Of a stretch of DNA of 22,225 bases, positions 2,358 to 21,352 are shown in pieces. The notes beneath the pieces are model-generated. The model made no database searches and had not been told where the DNA came from. It saw nothing but the letters and a program-made list of their open reading frames with translations. The translations under genes and the position numbers were made by a program. Within the stretch, counting starts at the first letter, position 1; the number at the start of each line of letters is the position of its first letter. This DNA comes from a virus: positions 1 to 22,225 of IMG/VR virus record IMGVR_UViG_3300027985_000573; one strand, written 5' to 3'.

Positions 2358-2793
2358 CGCACACGGGGTTGGTTGCCTCGAGTTGATCCATGTAGGCGTC
2401 TTCGTCGACGAACTGGCCGCAGCTTGGGCATTTTATTGGTTCGGCCCCAACGAAAATCGGATCATCCCGGTTGACCTTTTCGGTGAACCAGAGTTCAACC
2501 GCCTTGACCCAGGCAATGGCTTCTGTTGGTGACTGCCATATCCCGGACATTTCCGCCTCATTCATGATCAACAGGGTGTCATATATCTGTTGATAGATGC
2601 CTGGCGGCAGATCGATCATGGGAGGATAAGAGATGTCTTTCATGGCGACGGAAATCGGCCCCCATTTGTCATAAACCAGGATGCGCATGGCGCGGAATCG
2701 GTCCCAGGTGCAATCCATGGGCGGGCATGGCGTGCCGTCCGGCAGGGGGGCGGCGCGGCGGTCGCCGTTGTCGCAGTCGGTCCAGTCAGTCAT
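2338..2793 (-). CDS. Hypothetical protein with C-terminal zinc ribbon
   Basis: The start is ATG 2793, behind GAGGGTGAC. An upstream in-frame ATG at 2940 would overlap the tail fibre gene and add shadow-like sequence. The 151-residue product begins MTDWTDCDNGDRRAAPLPDG. It has a helical middle (about 75-110) and ends in a zinc-ribbon-like motif with C122, C125, C145 and C148. It lies ten bases after the tail fibre gene, so the two are co-transcribed. Position after a fibre gene allows a tail-fibre assembly or lysis accessory role, but no family is recognised. It is one of several small zinc-ribbon proteins in this phage. Confidence 0.7.
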   Translation of the reverse strand: MTDWTDCDNGDRRAAPLPDGTPCPPMDCTWDRFRAMRILVYDKWGPISVAMKDISYPPMIDLPPGIYQQIYDTLLIMNEAEMSGIWQSPTEAIAWVKAVELWFTEKVNRDDPIFVGAEPIKCPSCGQFVDEDAYMDQLEATNPVCANCKGA

Positions 2794-2803
2794 AATGTCA
2801 CCC

Positions 2804-4120
2804 TCAATAATCGAACAGTTCGTATTCGGCCTCAAAGTTGGCGGCGGCGTCGTACACCTGGAGCTGGACGGTGTCCATCTGGTTCGCGCTTTGCGCGATG
2901 ACGCGTTTGCAGGAACCCCATCCGGAGAAATCCGGCCCATCCCAGCGGCAGACCATGGCGACCTTGTCGTCAGCGTCCCACCAGAAACAGATTTCCAGGC
3001 ACACCCATTGGGCGTTGGGGGTGTGGCAGACGCGGTTGTCGCTGTTGTTTTGATTGGTCAGCGTGGCCGTACTGAAATAGTGCATCTGGCTGTAGTAGTC
3101 CGCCTTGGTGGTATCAACGGTGCCGGCGCCGTTGTCCAGCAGCAGGCTCATGGCATAGCCTGCCGAGGCGGCGCTTTTGATCCTGAGTTTCAGGCGGCGG
3201 CGCGTGCTGTTGGTGAGGCCAAATGTAGTGATCTGGTAGCTGGAAACACTGCCCCCGGTGTTCCCGGATTTGATCGGCGTGAGGCTGGCCCCGCCACCTC
3301 CGGATTCGGCGGCCCAGGTCGGCACGCCGGAAGCGAGTTTCAGGATCTGCCCATCGGTGCCCTTGGCGAGGCGGGAGATGATGCCATCGGCGGCGCAATA
3401 GAGGACGTCTCCGGCGACCAGCCCGGCGAACTGCTTGATGCGCTTGCCCGTGGTGCCGTCGAGAACGACCAGCCCGCCGTCTGTGGCGCTGGCAGGTCCG
3501 ACCACGTCGCCGGTGCCGGCGGCGGTCACCCAGCCGTCATAGCCGAGGATCTTCCCGGTGGCCCCGCCGGTGATGTAGGTTTGCAGGGCCGACAGCAGCG
3601 TCTTGCGCGCCCAGGCAACGCCGGTGTGGAACCAGCCCTCGCCGATGGCGCCGGGGTTGGCGCTGGTGGGCTGGCCCTCGGTGTTGCGGCCAAGGTCCTG
3701 GTTGATGGTGAGGGCGCCGATGGCGTAGGTGTCCACCTCCACCCCGGTGTCGTCCTCGGCATCGATTTCCGCGACTTCCAGGCGGGCGATCTTGCTGTCC
3801 GCATCCATCCAGGCGGTGAGTTCGGCGGTGTCGAGGTCGAGGGTTAGGGTGCAGGGGTTGGCCCAGGCGGCATAGGCCGTGGCCAGCCAGTCGCCGGAGA
3901 GAGCGGCAGGGTCTTTGATGCCCAGGCGGATGCCGACTTCGACGGCTTGCTCGGCGAGGGCCGAACCGTCGTACAGGGTGACCTGTACAGCCTGAGAGGC
4001 TTCGCCGCGAAGCAGCTCGCCAAGGGCGGTGTCGAGGTCGAGGAAGCGTCCGGACCCATCGCGAAACGCGTGGTACTCCGGGCGGCGGCGGTCGAGGCTG
4101 AGCTTGAGGGTGTAGGCCAT
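2804..4120 (-). CDS. Tail fibre / host-recognition protein
   Basis: The 438-residue protein ends the tail gene series, where siphoviruses encode receptor-binding parts. The N-terminal 180 residues probably attach to the tail tip; residues 20-60 contain a 'LDLDTALGELLRG' helix. From about 195 to 275 it has short Gly/Ala/Asp-rich segments such as GDVVGPASATDGGLVVLDGT and KGTDGQILKLASG, which resemble shaft or collar repeats of trimeric fibres. A Gly-rich hinge (about 273-277) leads into a beta-rich C-terminal domain (about 280-438) with many aromatic residues, a likely receptor-binding head. Start ATG 4120 lies 12 bases after the previous stop. No enzymatic motif is seen. Confidence 0.75.
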   Translation of the reverse strand: MAYTLKLSLDRRRPEYHAFRDGSGRFLDLDTALGELLRGEASQAVQVTLYDGSALAEQAVEVGIRLGIKDPAALSGDWLATAYAAWANPCTLTLDLDTAELTAWMDADSKIARLEVAEIDAEDDTGVEVDTYAIGALTINQDLGRNTEGQPTSANPGAIGEGWFHTGVAWARKTLLSALQTYITGGATGKILGYDGWVTAAGTGDVVGPASATDGGLVVLDGTTGKRIKQFAGLVAGDVLYCAADGIISRLAKGTDGQILKLASGVPTWAAESGGGGASLTPIKSGNTGGSVSSYQITTFGLTNSTRRRLKLRIKSAASAGYAMSLLLDNGAGTVDTTKADYYSQMHYFSTATLTNQNNSDNRVCHTPNAQWVCLEICFWWDADDKVAMVCRWDGPDFSGWGSCKRVIAQSANQMDTVQLQVYDAAANFEAEYELFDY

Positions 4121-4132
4121 GGGGTTACTCCG

Positions 4133-5335
4133 CTATAGGCTGAATTCGGTGGTCCAGAAACTGTCGAGGGCGGCGCGGACGGTGGATGAGAGGGCGCGGG
4201 CGTAAACCCGCAGTTCGGCAATCTGCATGTCCGGCGCGTCGGTGTCGGGATCATAGGAACCGCCATCGCCGCCGCCGACCTGGAGGGCGAGGTTGTCGGC
4301 CCCGGCCGCGCCGCCGCCGGTGTAGGTGGCGCTGTCGGCCAGACTGTTGTTGACGTAGATCGAGAACGAGCCGTTTTCGTAGATGGCGACGAGGCGATAC
4401 CAGGTGGAGCTGCTGAGGGCGGCGGTACTGACGGACTGCGAGCCGTTGTCCTGATTGACGAGGTTGAAATCAACGACGCCGGTGGAGTTGAGGAGCAGGC
4501 GGAACCAGAAGCGGCCGGTGGTCGTGTCGATGCGGGCCAGGATGTAGCTGTCCGACAGGGCGTTGAAGCGGACGACCATGCCGATGGTGAACGAATCGGA
4601 AGGCCCGAACTGGGTCAGGGTGTTGGCGGGCGTCTCGATGACGTCATTGGCGCCGTCCCAATCGACCACGGGATAGCCGTTGAGGACGTTGCCAATGATG
4701 CTCGGCTGGTTGGCGGCGACGGCCTGGGTGAGGTCGTTGCTGTTGCCGCTCTGGTCTGCCCAGGTGCCGATGGCGCCGGTGCCCAGCTCGTCATGCCGCA
4801 CGTAGAGGCGCATGCCGGTATCGAAGGGAATGTCGGTGACGGTGCCGGTGACCCACTGGATCACGTCGTCCACGTGCCCCAGAAGTTGGGTGTCGTCGGC
4901 GGCGTTGTAACCGGGCAGGGCGCGGAGCCAGGTGGCGAAATCCATCTCGGTGAGGATGATGCCGACCACGTAGGTGCTGTTTACCTGCACGGCCTCGGTG
5001 GGGATGGGGAGCCAGGCGAGGACGTCGTCGACGGCGGCAGGCAGGTTTTCCCAGGTGGCGGGCAGGGGCCAGGCCCACGTCAGGTAGACGTCGGCGCTGC
5101 CGTCGGTAGCCACGTCGGGCGGGATGGTGCCGTCCACATAGCAGGGGCGGACCTCGACCACGTAGGGGTAATCCTCCTCCGGCAGGGCCGTGACGACCTT
5201 GCCGAAGCGGACGCCCGCCGGAGGCAGGCCGGGAAGCCCGAGGTTGGCGCCAGACTGGCCGCGCTCGACGATGGCGACGGCGTTGCCAAGGCGATTCCAG
5301 GCGGCGGCGGTGGGGAGGACGTATTGCTCGGGCAT
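4133..5335 (-). CDS. Distal tail protein with LamG/concanavalin-like domain
   Basis: The start is ATG 5335, which overlaps the preceding stop as TGATG; longer in-frame starts would run through the upstream gene. The 400-residue product has an N-terminal domain (about 1-180) rich in Trp and Pro, probably for attachment to the tail tip. Its C-terminal half (about 185-400) looks like a laminin-G/concanavalin-type sandwich. The entry segment TWADQSGNSNDLTQ (191-204), the WYRLVAIYENGSFSIYVNN strand pair (312-330) and the closing AELRVYARALSS helix are typical of that fold. Such domains bind carbohydrate, so a role in host surface recognition is likely. Confidence 0.75.
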   Translation of the reverse strand: MPEQYVLPTAAAWNRLGNAVAIVERGQSGANLGLPGLPPAGVRFGKVVTALPEEDYPYVVEVRPCYVDGTIPPDVATDGSADVYLTWAWPLPATWENLPAAVDDVLAWLPIPTEAVQVNSTYVVGIILTEMDFATWLRALPGYNAADDTQLLGHVDDVIQWVTGTVTDIPFDTGMRLYVRHDELGTGAIGTWADQSGNSNDLTQAVAANQPSIIGNVLNGYPVVDWDGANDVIETPANTLTQFGPSDSFTIGMVVRFNALSDSYILARIDTTTGRFWFRLLLNSTGVVDFNLVNQDNGSQSVSTAALSSSTWYRLVAIYENGSFSIYVNNSLADSATYTGGGAAGADNLALQVGGGDGGSYDPDTDAPDMQIAELRVYARALSSTVRAALDSFWTTEFSL

Positions 5336-16530: not shown

Positions 16531-17697
16531 CTATCTGTTTGAGCTCAAAATAGCGGCGAGGTGTTTTAGATCGACCTCTTTTGCATGATCGCTATACAGC
16601 CGCGTCAGAGAAGCCGAACCATGCCCAACGACCGCCTGGACGATGGGGAGCGGAACGCCCAAGCGCGCGGCGCGCCAGACAAACGTATGTCGCAGGGAAT
16701 GAAAATCTTTGATTGCGAGAGGGGAGCCTGTGATGGCTCTCGCTGGTATCTTTGCGGCGGCGAACGTATTCCGCAACCTATAGGAAACTCCTGATCGATT
16801 TGATAAATACATATCAGCCTGAGTCGGTAGGAGATACGTTTCGGACGGCGGCAAGCCGGCTATCAATGACCTTACCTCTGGCAGCATTGGGACAAGCACT
16901 GATTGCCCTGTCTTTCGCTGAGCCAGCCGGCGGATCCAGCCACCATCAGTGTCTATTTCTGCCCAGGTAAGTGTGCAGACGTCTCCCAACCGTAATCCGG
17001 TATTCGCCCCAATAATGATCAACGGCCGCGTGAAATCATCGGCATGGTTGATGATAGTTTTCAACTCGCTTTCCGAAAACACATCGCGGTGCGCACCGCT
17101 GGCGGCGGGAATAGGAACGTCCTCAAATGGATTCTCTGTAAGCCCGGCTGACCGGCGGCAAACGCGAAACACATGCCTAAGCTGAATCAGATATTCCCGT
17201 CGCGACTTCTGGCCAAGGGCTGCCGTGCTGTTCTCATATTCCGCCTCGTGTCGGCGGCCCGGCCTGTTCAGCTTTATGGTACGAACAAATCGCCCATACT
17301 TCGCGAGCTGCTGGGCATACCCGCGAGCCATCTCCGGAGACACGTCGGCGAGCACGTCGACAGCCGGATGCTTGGCGGCCAGCCAGGCTGACCAATCACG
17401 CCATATCGATTCAATTTGCTGCCGCGACCTATCCGACAACGAGCCCCGACGCGGAACGTTCAGCCGCAGAAAATGAGTCATGGCATTATCGATCGTCACC
17501 TCTGCCGAGCCCATTCGTATCCGCCGGACCGTCTCTGCCAATTCTGCCGCTGACTTTTTCCCTCGCAAATCAGAAACAAAATCCCGTTCCCACTGCTCAG
17601 CTTCCCGTTTCACGGTTTTCCCGGTGCTTTTTCGTATCTCCCGGCCATCTATTTGTACTCGTACCCAATAAACCGTTCCACGCTGATACAGTCCCAT
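16531..17697 (-). CDS. int: Tyrosine-family site-specific integrase
   Basis: The 388-residue enzyme has the full tyrosine recombinase set. R236 lies in NTGLRLGDVCTLTW, K262 in QRKTGQ, H333 and R336 in HSLRHTF, H359 in VVGHG, and the nucleophile Y368 in LTRLYSDH. The N-terminal 60 residues form an arm-binding-like domain (YWVRVQIDGREIRKSTGKT), and residues about 65-180 are the core-binding SAM-like domain. It joins attP with the host attB by a covalent phosphotyrosine intermediate. Start ATG 17697 follows AAGGAAAAG. The attP with tRNA-His sequence lies 155 bases upstream, with repeats matching arm-type sites. It interrupts the usual terminase-to-portal gene order. Confidence 0.93.
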   Translation of the reverse strand: MGLYQRGTVYWVRVQIDGREIRKSTGKTVKREAEQWERDFVSDLRGKKSAAELAETVRRIRMGSAEVTIDNAMTHFLRLNVPRRGSLSDRSRQQIESIWRDWSAWLAAKHPAVDVLADVSPEMARGYAQQLAKYGRFVRTIKLNRPGRRHEAEYENSTAALGQKSRREYLIQLRHVFRVCRRSAGLTENPFEDVPIPAASGAHRDVFSESELKTIINHADDFTRPLIIIGANTGLRLGDVCTLTWAEIDTDGGWIRRLAQRKTGQSVLVPMLPEVRSLIAGLPPSETYLLPTQADMYLSNRSGVSYRLRNTFAAAKIPARAITGSPLAIKDFHSLRHTFVWRAARLGVPLPIVQAVVGHGSASLTRLYSDHAKEVDLKHLAAILSSNR

Positions 17698-17999: not shown

Positions 18000-19841
18000 T
18001 CAGCGACCAGTAATGAAATTGCGGCGGATTACTCGCGGCATCGGCGTGGCTGCAGAGGCAGCCAAATCCGTTGATCTTGGCGCTTCCGTAGACGGTGGGG
18101 GAGCCGCCGGCGGGGGCGGTTTGCTGAGCTGCGCATGGAACGCCATGAGCAGGACCTGGATCATCTTCTCCACGTCGAAATAGTGGTCGTCGGCCCCATC
18201 GGCCGGGCGCCATTCGCTGATGTCAGCCTTGGGCTTGTTCGCCGGCGGCCGGACGCTGAGGAGCTGCTCGAGGTACTCCGCATCCGGGGTCGGCGGCAGG
18301 TGGAAGAACGACGCCCGCCCGTCCGCGATGCGGTGCATATGCCATAGCAACCGGTGCTGGAAGATATGCGGGTTCGCTCGGATGAGCCTGTACTTGTTGC
18401 GGCTGAGTTCCCATGGGATCGACTGCCGCCCCACGCCCTTGTAGCTGTAGCAGTTTGGCAGCCGCCGAATCAGCGCGTCGACCTCCAGCGTCCGATGCCC
18501 GCCCTCGTCGATGATCCCGTAGCGGCATTGTTTCCCGGCGTACAGCGCGTTGTACGCCCGTTCCAGGTCGTCGTCGGTCGCCGCGAACCCATTCCCCAGC
18601 CGCCAGGTCTGGCCGCCCTCGCCGAGCCCAACCGCGCCCCAGTACCAACCGGTATCCTGGGTATCCGCGCCGAACAGGACATAGCGCACCTCGTCATCCG
18701 CCGGCAACGCCCGGCAATGCGCCCGTTTGAACTCCTCCATCGACTGCCCGCGCGTCCCCCGCAGCCGAAACGGCAGACCCCGGATCGACTGGTCCAGGAA
18801 CATCTGCCCCTCGATCGTTCCCTTGCCGCCGCCGTCCCGCAGCGCCTCGCAGATGTCCCGCCACGAGATGAACGGGCTTGCCAGCGCGCTCCATTGAAAC
18901 CCCCGATGCTCCCCCAGGCGCTCCGGGTGCCGGTGCACGAACTCCCCGGCCAGGTTCATCGCCTGGCGCTCCCCTTCCACGTGCTTCCGCCCGCAGCTCG
19001 GGCACACCCAGCGGATCGACAGTTCCAACACGTTGCCGCTCTCGTCCATCTCAAACCGCATTGGCCGCATGTCGTGCGCCACCGTCAGCCCCCCGCACCC
19101 CAGGCACCGCACATGCCATTCCCCCTGGCTCGACCGCGCGTACTCCTGATTGATCGGGCCATTGGGCAAGGTCGGCGAGCAGCTCAGCCAGCGCAGCGAC
19201 TCCGCGAACGTCCGCGTCCGCTTATCCAGGTTGCGGATGTTCGAAACGTTCTTCGCGCTCTCCAGCGCCTTGATGCTCGAATTGTTCGCCTGGCTCGGCA
19301 GGTTCCAGAAATCCACCTCGTCCCCAACCACGATCGCGGCCGGGTGACTCGTCACCGGCGACCCCGACCCGCAGAAGTGCACCACCATGTCGCTGAACAG
19401 ATACCGATCCGCCCGCTTCGACCCCGGCGAATCCAGTTCCCGGCGCAGCTTCGGGATCCCCCGCATCAACGGCTCAACCTGTTCCTGGTTCTTCTCCGCC
19501 GCGATGTCGTCGTTCTGCCATACGATCAAGGCCGGCGCCGGGCGCCGCTCCATCCGGTACATCAAACCCCACACCCAGGGCGACGTCTTCGCCGTCTGTT
19601 CCGGCGCCATCACCGTCACCTTCAGCCGCTTCCCCCGCTCGTTCCAACACCGCAGCGGCTCCCGCAGGTACGGCGTCAGGTCCAGATTCACCAATCCATC
19701 CGCCGCGCTCGTCGTATCCAGAGTCAGGTCGATGTTTTCCTCCACCCACTCATCGCAAGGCATCTCCTGCCCGGGCAACAGCCAACCCGCCAGGTACTGC
19801 GTCAACGACCGCCGCGCGTCCGGAAGAATCGGTAAGCTCAT
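18000..19841 (-). CDS. Terminase large subunit (GpA family)
   Basis: The 613-residue packaging motor begins ATG 19841, which directly abuts the TAG of the overlapping ORF upstream. The ATPase half has a Walker A-like loop APEQTAKTS (79-87), deviating from the usual G-K-T pattern, and Walker B AAIVVGDEVDFW (168-179). Two Cys pairs, CLGC (246-249) and CPSC (280-283), form a zinc-binding insert common in GpA proteins. The nuclease half has FGADTQDTGWYWG (390-402) with acidic D393 and D396, and YGIIDEGGHRT (441-451) with D445. It cuts concatemeric DNA and pumps it through the portal. The GpA family usually works with a small subunit and cos sites; cos is not identified here. Confidence 0.9.
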   Translation of the reverse strand: MSLPILPDARRSLTQYLAGWLLPGQEMPCDEWVEENIDLTLDTTSAADGLVNLDLTPYLREPLRCWNERGKRLKVTVMAPEQTAKTSPWVWGLMYRMERRPAPALIVWQNDDIAAEKNQEQVEPLMRGIPKLRRELDSPGSKRADRYLFSDMVVHFCGSGSPVTSHPAAIVVGDEVDFWNLPSQANNSSIKALESAKNVSNIRNLDKRTRTFAESLRWLSCSPTLPNGPINQEYARSSQGEWHVRCLGCGGLTVAHDMRPMRFEMDESGNVLELSIRWVCPSCGRKHVEGERQAMNLAGEFVHRHPERLGEHRGFQWSALASPFISWRDICEALRDGGGKGTIEGQMFLDQSIRGLPFRLRGTRGQSMEEFKRAHCRALPADDEVRYVLFGADTQDTGWYWGAVGLGEGGQTWRLGNGFAATDDDLERAYNALYAGKQCRYGIIDEGGHRTLEVDALIRRLPNCYSYKGVGRQSIPWELSRNKYRLIRANPHIFQHRLLWHMHRIADGRASFFHLPPTPDAEYLEQLLSVRPPANKPKADISEWRPADGADDHYFDVEKMIQVLLMAFHAQLSKPPPPAAPPPSTEAPRSTDLAASAATPMPRVIRRNFITGR

Positions 19842-21053
19842 CTATTTCTCAGCCCTTCCAGCCTTCGATTTTTGCGATGGCCGCGAGCGCTTCCTGGAGG
19901 AAGAGCGCCGCGAGCTGCGGAACGATCGCATTGCCGTAACCGCGCAAGCGCACCACTCGGGCGGGAAGCCCATGAGCCAACGGGAAAAATGTGGGTTCAA
20001 CTGGGATGCGGCGGGCTTTCCCGTCGAGGTATCGGTGCAACCGGTACTCGCTCCACGGGCCTGAGATTCCAAGTCTCCGCCGCCGCTCTGGATTCTCCCA
20101 AGTTCCTTTTTCCGTTCCGCACTTTCCGCGCCGCCGGTTGGTGTCCTCGGTGTTGCATACCCCGCCAGCAAAGCGCTCTCCGTCAACTGGCCACGGCGCT
20201 GGCCGACCTGGCTGCTGCCCTTGTAATCCGTCGCCGAGGGTGTCGGGCTCCCCGCCAATTGCGAAACATTCCCCAGTGTTACCGTTGCCTTTGTTCCATT
20301 TGGTCTTTTTCCCGTGCTGCTTGTCCCCTCTGGATTGGTTTGGCCTCCGCTCGGTGTTGTTGGTGTCGGATGCCCCGCCAACAGACTCAGCGAGGCCGTC
20401 GAATGATTGCCCTTCCCGAAGGCCGCTTTCCCCCGTTTGCCGTCTCCGGCTGTTGGGCTCGGTTGACCCGCCAACGTCGCACTGCTCACCAACCCGTTGC
20501 GCGGATCGATTGAGACGTCCCCACGCTTCTCGGCATCGTTCGCCCGGGGTGTAGGCGATCCAGAACAGCCGTTGCCGGATATGGGGCGCGCCGACGCCCG
20601 CAGCGCACAGATCCGCGGCTCCGAACCGATATCCCATTGCTTCCAGGTCAAGACGTATTCCGGCGAGCCATTCGCGGCCATCCGCGCTTGCAACCTGTTC
20701 GCCAACGACGATTGGAGGACGGTGCTGGGCGATAAGCCAGCGAAAAGCGGGCCACAGGTGGCGCGAGTCCTCAGTTCCTCGGCGCAAGCCGGCGTCACTG
20801 AATGGCTGGCAAGGGCATGATCCGCTCCACAGGGGGAAGTCATCGGGCACACCAGCCAATCGCGATGTGATTGCCCAGCCGCCAATGCCTGCGAAAAAGT
20901 GGCACTGCTCGTACCCGCAAAGCTCTCCTGGGGGCACGTCCTCGATACTCCGCTCATCGACGACTCCCGCCGGCAAGTGTCCCCGCCCGACAAGCTCCCG
21001 CAACCACGCTGCCGTTTTCGGCTCGAACTCGTTGTAGTACTGCATGGCATCAT
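19842..21053 (-). CDS. Overprinted ORF within the methyltransferase gene, conserved-looking phage protein
   Basis: This 403-residue frame runs the whole length of the methyltransferase gene on the same strand. Its ATG (21053, or 21050) overlaps the preceding stop as ATGATG, behind GGAGGGGG, and its TAG abuts the terminase ATG. It is not random: TCGPLFAGLSPSTVLQSSLA, then NGSPEYVLTWKQW, RICALRASARPISG, and LNPHFSRWLMGFPPEW match, from memory, a widespread phage protein family and the C-terminal segment of other cytosine methyltransferases. Residues 165-310 hold five 'S/H/Y-x-TP' repeats spaced 30-41 residues apart, and the tail is Ser/Arg/Lys-rich. Function is unknown. A methyltransferase specificity partner or a non-translated shadow are alternatives. 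Confidence 0.6.
   Translation of the reverse strand: MMPCSTTTSSSRKRQRGCGSLSGGDTCRRESSMSGVSRTCPQESFAGTSSATFSQALAAGQSHRDWLVCPMTSPCGADHALASHSVTPACAEELRTRATCGPLFAGLSPSTVLQSSLANRLQARMAANGSPEYVLTWKQWDIGSEPRICALRASARPISGNGCSGSPTPRANDAEKRGDVSIDPRNGLVSSATLAGQPSPTAGDGKRGKAAFGKGNHSTASLSLLAGHPTPTTPSGGQTNPEGTSSTGKRPNGTKATVTLGNVSQLAGSPTPSATDYKGSSQVGQRRGQLTESALLAGYATPRTPTGGAESAERKKELGRIQSGGGDLESQARGASTGCTDTSTGKPAASQLNPHFSRWLMGFPPEWCACAVTAMRSFRSSRRSSSRKRSRPSQKSKAGRAEK
19849..21045 (-). CDS. DNA cytosine-C5 methyltransferase
   Basis: The start is ATG 21045 (MQYYNEFEPKTAAWLREL), nine bases after GGAGGGGG; an upstream in-frame reading from 21126 overlaps the previous gene. The 398-residue enzyme shows motif I HFFAGIGGW (49-57), motif IV with catalytic C79 in CPCQPFS, motif VI as GEQVAS, motif VIII IRQRLFW (156-162), and a C-terminal motif X-like GYGNAIVPQLAALFL. 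The GEQV form instead of ENV is common in phage relatives. The region between motif VIII and X (about 170-345) holds degenerate repeats and must contain target recognition. It probably protects phage DNA from host restriction. Another open frame covers the same DNA. Confidence 0.88.
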   Translation of the reverse strand: MQYYNEFEPKTAAWLRELVGRGHLPAGVVDERSIEDVPPGELCGYEQCHFFAGIGGWAITSRLAGVPDDFPLWSGSCPCQPFSDAGLRRGTEDSRHLWPAFRWLIAQHRPPIVVGEQVASADGREWLAGIRLDLEAMGYRFGAADLCAAGVGAPHIRQRLFWIAYTPGERCREAWGRLNRSAQRVGEQCDVGGSTEPNSRRRQTGESGLREGQSFDGLAESVGGASDTNNTERRPNQSRGDKQHGKKTKWNKGNGNTGECFAIGGEPDTLGDGLQGQQPGRPAPWPVDGERFAGGVCNTEDTNRRRGKCGTEKGTWENPERRRRLGISGPWSEYRLHRYLDGKARRIPVEPTFFPLAHGLPARVVRLRGYGNAIVPQLAALFLQEALAAIAKIEGWKG

Positions 21054-21352
21054 GCCCCCTCCAGTGGTAGGCCATGCGGCGGCGGCGGAAACGGAACGGC
21101 GACAAAGAGCTTGGTAAGCCCCACAAAACCCGCTGCCCGCGCCCAATGCCCCTTCGGCGTCAGGAAAGCGACTTCGCCAGTTCTCCCATTGGGATACCAG
21201 TACATTTCCTCATGCGGCTTCGTAATCTCCTCATACCGCAACACCGGGAACAGCTCGCACTTCGGGATACCCTCCGGCGGGGTCGCTTCGATCCTTGTTT
21301 CGCTTTGCGCATTTGCATCTTCGCGTCTTGGCGTTGACTTCTTGGTATTCAC
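21050..21352 (-). CDS. Hypothetical 100-residue protein
   Basis: The start is a GTG at 21352 that overlaps the preceding TGA as GTGA, with AGGAGG about seven bases upstream. The N-terminus is polar and disordered-looking (MNTKKSTPRREDANAQSETR). A compact part follows with KCELFPVLRYEEITKPHEEM and YWYPNGRTGEVAFLTPKGHW. A Pro-rich end closes the protein. It has no membrane helix or known motif. It lies between terminase small subunit and the methyltransferase, and its stop overlaps the start of the overprinted ORF. Translational coupling is therefore likely. I do not recognise the family. Confidence 0.65.
   Translation of the reverse strand: MNTKKSTPRREDANAQSETRIEATPPEGIPKCELFPVLRYEEITKPHEEMYWYPNGRTGEVAFLTPKGHWARAAGFVGLTKLFVAVPFPPPPHGLPLEGA

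Follow-up and report, generated by a model that had tools for sequence, protein, structure and literature searches.

C5-cytosine methyltransferases are assembled from a set of conserved motifs, with the target-recognition domain sitting between motifs VIII and IX (PMC3404938). Not all of them are single chains. M.EcoHK31I (YGGCCR) is a natural two-polypeptide enzyme in which the large polypeptide carries motifs I–VIII and X together with the predicted recognition domain, and motif IX is found in a separate small polypeptide (PMC3404938). M.AquI (CYCGRG), also made of two polypeptides, is split after motif VIII, its second half carrying IX and X (PMC3404938). In phages, the multispecific C5-methyltransferases of temperate Bacillus phages carry several recognition modules in a row on one polypeptide and act against restriction (PMC12707154), and methylase genes may also conceal an HNH endonuclease, the ShiLan domain (PMC11855218).

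The window considered here, the whole 22,225-nucleotide stretch of viral DNA that was analysed, contains two overlapping minus-strand frames, A and B. We interpret the locus as a two-subunit C5-methyltransferase made from nested genes, with A as the catalytic subunit and B supplying target recognition and motif IX, and we estimate the probability of this reading at about 0.84. Many other phages, forming a large family, have the same A/B geometry; in most of their records only one ordinary methyltransferase gene is annotated.

Results

Layout of the locus

The two frames and the methyltransferase motifs are placed as follows.

19849-21045, minus strand: frame A, predicted catalytic subunit of a C5-cytosine methyltransferase, 398 aa (PF00145, phrog_363, alignment)
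19842-21053, minus strand: frame B, longest ATG-started frame, 403 aa, +1 relative to A
20901-20875, minus strand: motif I, frame A (from sequence)
20797-20820, minus strand: motif IV with the catalytic PCQ, frame A (from sequence)
20709-20692, minus strand: motif VI, frame A (from sequence)
20592-20563, minus strand: motif VIII, frame A (from sequence)
19953-20003, minus strand: putative motif IX, frame B, QLNPHFSRWLMGFPPEW (position, weak alignment)
19918-19947, minus strand: motif X, frame A, LRGYGNAIVP (from sequence)

Frame A matches PF00145 (E 5.5e-13) and phrog_363 (E 1.2e-72), and motifs I, IV, VI, VIII and X, which the initial annotation had assigned to a C5-cytosine methyltransferase, were all located in it. 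Its start at 21045 (MQYYNEF) is the conserved one, with a further in-frame ATG upstream at 21075, and it ends with a TGA at 19851-19849. Frame B, from an ATG at 21053 to a TAG at 19844-19842, corresponds to the second same-strand frame that had been described as 403 codons long and ending seven bases after A. The third frame of this stretch contains 11 stops. The window's frame A has no motif IX and consequently does not conform to the usual single-chain form, where recognition region and motif IX share one chain.

The TAG of B abuts the ATG of the terminase large subunit gene (19841) in a TAGATG junction at 19839-19844, which could permit translational coupling of B and terminase. A tyrosine integrase gene (PF00589, phrog_1) is located at 16531-17697 of the window, between the terminase large subunit and portal genes, an unusual place for an integrase, among packaging and head genes.

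Openness of frame B

Long shadow reading frames occur elsewhere in the window, for example one of 493 aa opposite the terminase gene, and B could be no more than an untranslated chance shadow of a GC-rich methyltransferase gene. As a null model, synonymous codons were shuffled within A, keeping both the A protein and its codon usage fixed. Only about 1% of such shuffles leave the window's B frame open between A codon 40 and motif X, and across 95 loci found mainly through B, the same span contains 6 B-frame stops against 256 expected. Because those loci had been found through B, we also tested a set found only via the A motifs QCHFFAG and PCQPFSxAG. Its 60 loci hold 2 B-frame stops, with 166 expected from synonymous shuffling, and B is fully open in 58 of the 60, where about 7% would be expected.

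The control frames behave as the null model predicts: the +2 frame has 1062 stops versus 997 expected in the first set and 713 versus 640 in the second. For the longest other gene at these loci, the +1 frame has 959 stops versus 1007 expected and is open at 0 of 124 loci. Some contigs contribute loci to both sets, which makes the counts partly non-independent, and pairwise tests were made on a reduced set. A scan of genome contigs with one protein yielded two loci only.

The shuffle tests and controls rule out a chance shadow frame. Shuffles with A protein and codon usage fixed reproduce neither the openness of B nor its conservation, the stretch in which A lacks conservation is precisely where B is conserved, and in actinobacteriophages B runs on past the end of A; the probability that remains for a mere shadow is in our judgement negligible.

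Selection on the two frames

Constraint is distributed along the overlap in three main stretches upstream of motif IX.

20797-21045, minus strand: stretch constrained in A only, with motifs I and IV (shuffle test, pN/pS)
20563-20796, minus strand: dual-constrained stretch, approximately A codons 84–160 (Z scores, codon choice)
20004-20562, minus strand: VIII–IX variable region, B-coding, with five PTP-type modules (region tests)

For 250 pairs drawn from 77 non-redundant loci, alignment scores in each frame were compared with shuffles that keep the protein of the other frame. Upstream of approximately motif VI only A exceeds the null (median Z 11.9 for A, 0.4 for B), while over motifs VI–VIII both frames do so (A 10.9, B 5.1). 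The balance is reversed between VIII and IX, with a Z of 7.7 for B and 0.9 for A, scarcely above the null, and here A is only a shadow of B. Both frames are again selected around motif IX (A 4.5, B 3.9) and around motif X (A 4.0, B 2.4). The ratio pN/pS gives the same reversal of roles, from 0.29 for A and 1.65 for B in the N region to 1.40 for A and 0.50 for B in the variable VIII–IX region, although the alignments of the latter were chosen for similarity in B and so lean slightly towards it.

Around motifs VI–VIII, the residues of B dictate which codons A uses. A-Gly142 is encoded by GGG at 104 of 109 loci (13.7 expected), at a place where Gly is also found in B; A-Val130 is encoded by GTA in 86 of 110 (9.8 expected), giving Tyr in B, with Phe in 19 more; and for A-Pro110, 119 of 123 loci use CCT (34 expected), which gives Leu in B. 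In the window, the dual-constrained stretch comprises motifs VI and VIII of A and the B segment SLANRLQARM...EYVLTWKQWD...ICALRAS. A conserved DNA element in place of a conserved protein can be ruled out for the modules of B, as the third codon positions of B vary: identity in GxPTP is 51% at third positions versus 94–98% at positions 1 and 2, so it is the protein, not the DNA, that is conserved.

Between VIII and IX, A is an unconserved linker that nevertheless remains open, and the stretch of A leading from VIII to X has no conservation beyond the shadow of B. A test of A openness between VIII and IX would be circular where loci are picked for motif X in the frame of A, and a tally made without selection for X was used instead: at 182 loci, some of which are one contig fetched twice, A is open past IX, with IX in the +1 frame and X in A.

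The resulting map has A alone constrained upstream of approximately A codon 84, both frames from about 84 to 160, B between VIII and IX, and both around IX and X. The proposal of dual coding is therefore upheld by openness, conservation, codon choice, pN/pS and start sites, but not for the overlap as a whole, which is not uniformly dual-coding; strict double constraint is confined mainly to about 75 codons around VI–VIII and to the IX–X end. Stop codons in relatives and a lack of constraint beyond that of the methyltransferase, both named among the observations that would refute dual coding, are contradicted by the 2 stops in 60 loci and by the conservation of B beyond the shadow of A. As far as comparison of sequences can establish it, both frames are open and selected at the protein level, motif IX is present only in B, and the geometry is shared by many phages.

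Motif IX and modules in frame B

B matches phrog_1008 (E 2.7e-28) and phrog_31772 (E 2.1e-10), and phrog_1008, labelled "DNA methyltransferase", is matched by 23 of the 23 B proteins tested. Neither Pfam families nor solved structures gave a match to B, and a sequence search of the PDB with a B profile was likewise without a match.

The end of B, QLNPHFSRWLMGFPPEW, is assigned to motif IX, an identification that rests on position and weak alignment only. The segment LNPHFSRWLMGFPPEW, which the initial annotation had singled out in B, is motif IX on the same grounds, its position and a weak resemblance to M.HhaI. That resemblance, to M.HhaI residues ~272–289, runs via a single-chain relative: RLIPQFEEWMMGFPPGW of Rabbitrun gp78 aligns, with a weak score, with M.HhaI KLHPRECARVMGYPDSY and is followed by motif X, in the correct order. 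At the A-found loci motif IX is nearly always in frame B and never in A.

The modules of B between VIII and IX begin with an LAGxPTP-like sequence. Their number differs, with five in the window (starting near 20564, 20471, 20378, 20255 and 20165 on the minus strand), one in locus L021 and others elsewhere, and the window's B thus has the module array between VIII and IX that defines the multispecific type. One module, AERKKELGR, occurs in 6 of the 95 B-found loci and 0 of the 60 A-found ones, but it was enriched by the search pattern and we claim no frequency for it. Automatic clustering of modules by single linkage merged most of them and was not used.

Relatives and alternative layouts

TaylorSipht, Conboy, Twister, Vash and PeaceMeal1, all actinobacteriophages, have an A frame that ends shortly beyond motif VIII, whereas B, in +1, continues by itself through modules, IX and X. 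A single frame carries motifs I–VIII, IX and X in Stultus, prophi91-4, Quico and Rabbitrun. B homologues confined to methyltransferase overlaps would have spoken against dual coding, and this is not what is found: at five actinobacteriophage loci (L197, L198, L310, L311 and L313) B lies mostly beyond A.

These relatives bear on the possibility that B is a real, selected protein that is not a methyltransferase subunit, such as one for DNA binding, regulation or anti-restriction whose gene has been overprinted on that of the methyltransferase. The absence of any match to a solved or Pfam family, and of biochemical data, leaves room for such a protein. However, B has the motif IX that A lacks, single-chain relatives fuse modules, IX and X to I–VIII, and PHROGs files the family as DNA methyltransferase, and we consider an unrelated function unlikely.

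In the single-chain forms the +1 frame over VI–VIII is still conserved (median Z 6.2), with 0 stops versus 9.4 expected, which is not explained if the role of B is purely that of a missing half. In ten single-chain actinobacteriophage methyltransferases (L290, L294, L295, L297-L299, L308, L309, L312 and L314) this conservation covers VI–VIII and the first module or modules. This pattern would fit continued production of a short B protein.

A second methyltransferase subfamily (L031, L033, L201-L279) has the same +1 geometry, although few of its loci were tested. In this subfamily B reaches back over motif I of A (L031 2437-3354, L033 2368-3624, L199 2501-2671), where it has a conserved segment of its own, xPASEDS...WRGKPSPARSW, with a Z of 3.9 for B given A (four loci).

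Two further kinds of variation were observed. At L002 (~2630-3030) and L084 (~3790-4250) a long extra segment of A, possibly an insertion element, lies between the IX region and X, past the end of B. At L026 (1260-1540), L027 (3369-3650) and L032 (1-1200) an indel shifts both frames, so that the +1 relation is kept and A is broken, pointing to a pseudogene or an assembly error. The GenBank entries of K1ind2 (ADA82428 and ADA82427, the second labelled "Mte8-like") and PhiXhv-5 each list the two overlapping ORFs.

Start of frame B

The best-supported start of B in the window lies inside A.

19842-20957, minus strand: frame B from ATG 20957, 371 aa (start inferred)
20964-20968, minus strand: GGGAG, Shine-Dalgarno-like, six bases before ATG 20957 (from sequence)

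ATG 20957 is the only B-frame ATG or GTG with a Shine-Dalgarno-like upstream sequence in that part of the window. With this start, the constrained part of B would be preceded by about 54 residues that are not conserved, and no selection was seen on the N-terminal part of B, whether taken as these ~54 residues or as the 86 from ATG 21053. A B-frame ATG or GTG inside A, with a Shine-Dalgarno-like sequence and no later stop, is present at 95 of 124 loci against 23 expected, most commonly at A codons 36, 30 and 92.

B is always in +1, and canonical C5-methyltransferases and the single-chain actinobacteriophage forms have just the order of parts that would arise if programmed +1 frameshifting joined A (I–VIII) to B (recognition region, IX) as one chain. 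Nevertheless, selection on B over VI–VIII implies that B is translated there, upstream of the required shift site, which disfavours a simple frameshift fusion near VIII. Shine-Dalgarno and start sites are moreover enriched in the B frame (no search for slippery sites was made), and motif X would stay in the other frame after a shift, yet A is open through X. Frameshifting is consequently, in our view, very improbable.

Structure prediction

AlphaFold2 predicts a confident helix and beta-hairpin for the B protein of L021, in the dual-coded part only, with low confidence for the modules and the motif IX part. In a fusion model, A joined to B via a four-base word at A-Phe161, the large domain is predicted confidently and the modules again with low confidence. 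Rows from the phage collection were excluded from the input to these predictions. The best VIA-align matches of this model are C5-methyltransferases: 1dct (Z 11.4, rmsd 2.9, 141 aligned) and 2uz4 (Z 11.1, rmsd 3.6, 157 aligned). Some alignments with M.HhaI reach residue 300, but at such low pLDDT they lend only weak support to motif IX. Foldseek with B alone found nothing significant.

Discussion

A two-subunit model

The suggestion that the products of the two frames divide catalysis and target recognition between them is supported by inference: B holds motif IX and the variable VIII–IX region, and relatives have the same parts in one chain. In this two-subunit reading, A would be the catalytic large domain, with I–VIII, an unconserved linker and motif X, which would bind AdoMet and carry out catalysis. 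B would be initiated separately in the +1 frame from a ribosome-binding site inside A. Its contribution would be the small domain, consisting of a short helix-hairpin segment, the modular region for target recognition, and motif IX. The two subunits would then come together on DNA, with B determining the sites at which cytosines are methylated. M.EcoHK31I is described as working in this manner, except for where its recognition domain lies (PMC3404938). The expression and exact start of B, the assembly of A with B, methylation activity, the reading of targets by the modules and the biological role are all inferred. The phage would probably use the enzyme to escape host restriction enzymes, a role suggested because the module array recalls the Bacillus phage multispecific methyltransferases.

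B may go further and be an interchangeable, multispecific recognition subunit, in which each LAGxPTP module has its own target and modules are swapped between phages, making a combinatorial anti-restriction methyltransferase. We put this forward tentatively, at somewhat below even odds; if true, a large class of phages would have a nested and often unannotated specificity half.

If the two-subunit reading is correct, many database entries for phage "DNA cytosine methyltransferases" would represent only half of an enzyme. In that case A cloned alone may be inactive, and specificity would reside in a gene that annotations often miss or label hypothetical. The locus would also be an unusually well-documented case of dual coding, with measurable borders between one-frame and two-frame constraint. 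Because relatives have these parts fused in one chain, in two genes that are almost separate, or fully nested, it would also offer a direct test of how an overlapping gene originates.

Comparison with known systems

No description of the A/B overlap was found in the open-licence literature (subscription journals and REBASE were outside the search). By profile match, B belongs to the same family as PHROGs 1008 and 31772 and the "Mte8-like" ORF28 of Escherichia phage K1ind2, but these annotations do not mention a +1 partner or the missing half of a methyltransferase. The ShiLan domain is likewise a protein that had been overlooked in a different frame of a phage methylase gene; it is, however, a homing endonuclease encoded by a mobile insertion and not the recognition half of the methyltransferase itself. 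In the multispecific methyltransferases of Bacillus phages, modules share a chain with the catalytic motifs, whereas the window's modules are in a separate, overlapping gene.

M.AquI has a comparable split between catalysis and recognition after motif VIII. It differs from the window, where X is in A; the M.AquI layout, with IX and X together, is met in the actinobacteriophage relatives. M.EcoHK31I resembles the window in having I–VIII and X in one polypeptide, as in A, and IX in the other, as in B, a likeness of layout only, without sequence comparison. Its small-subunit gene is said, in work by Lee, Kam and Shaw in 1995, to lie inside the large one in another frame. In the window, by contrast, the VIII–IX region is selected in B only and not in A, and B proteins of this type have variable numbers of modules. 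Split C5-methyltransferases are thus already known; what seems to be new here is a nested form found very widely, in which the overlapping gene encodes the proposed recognition half.
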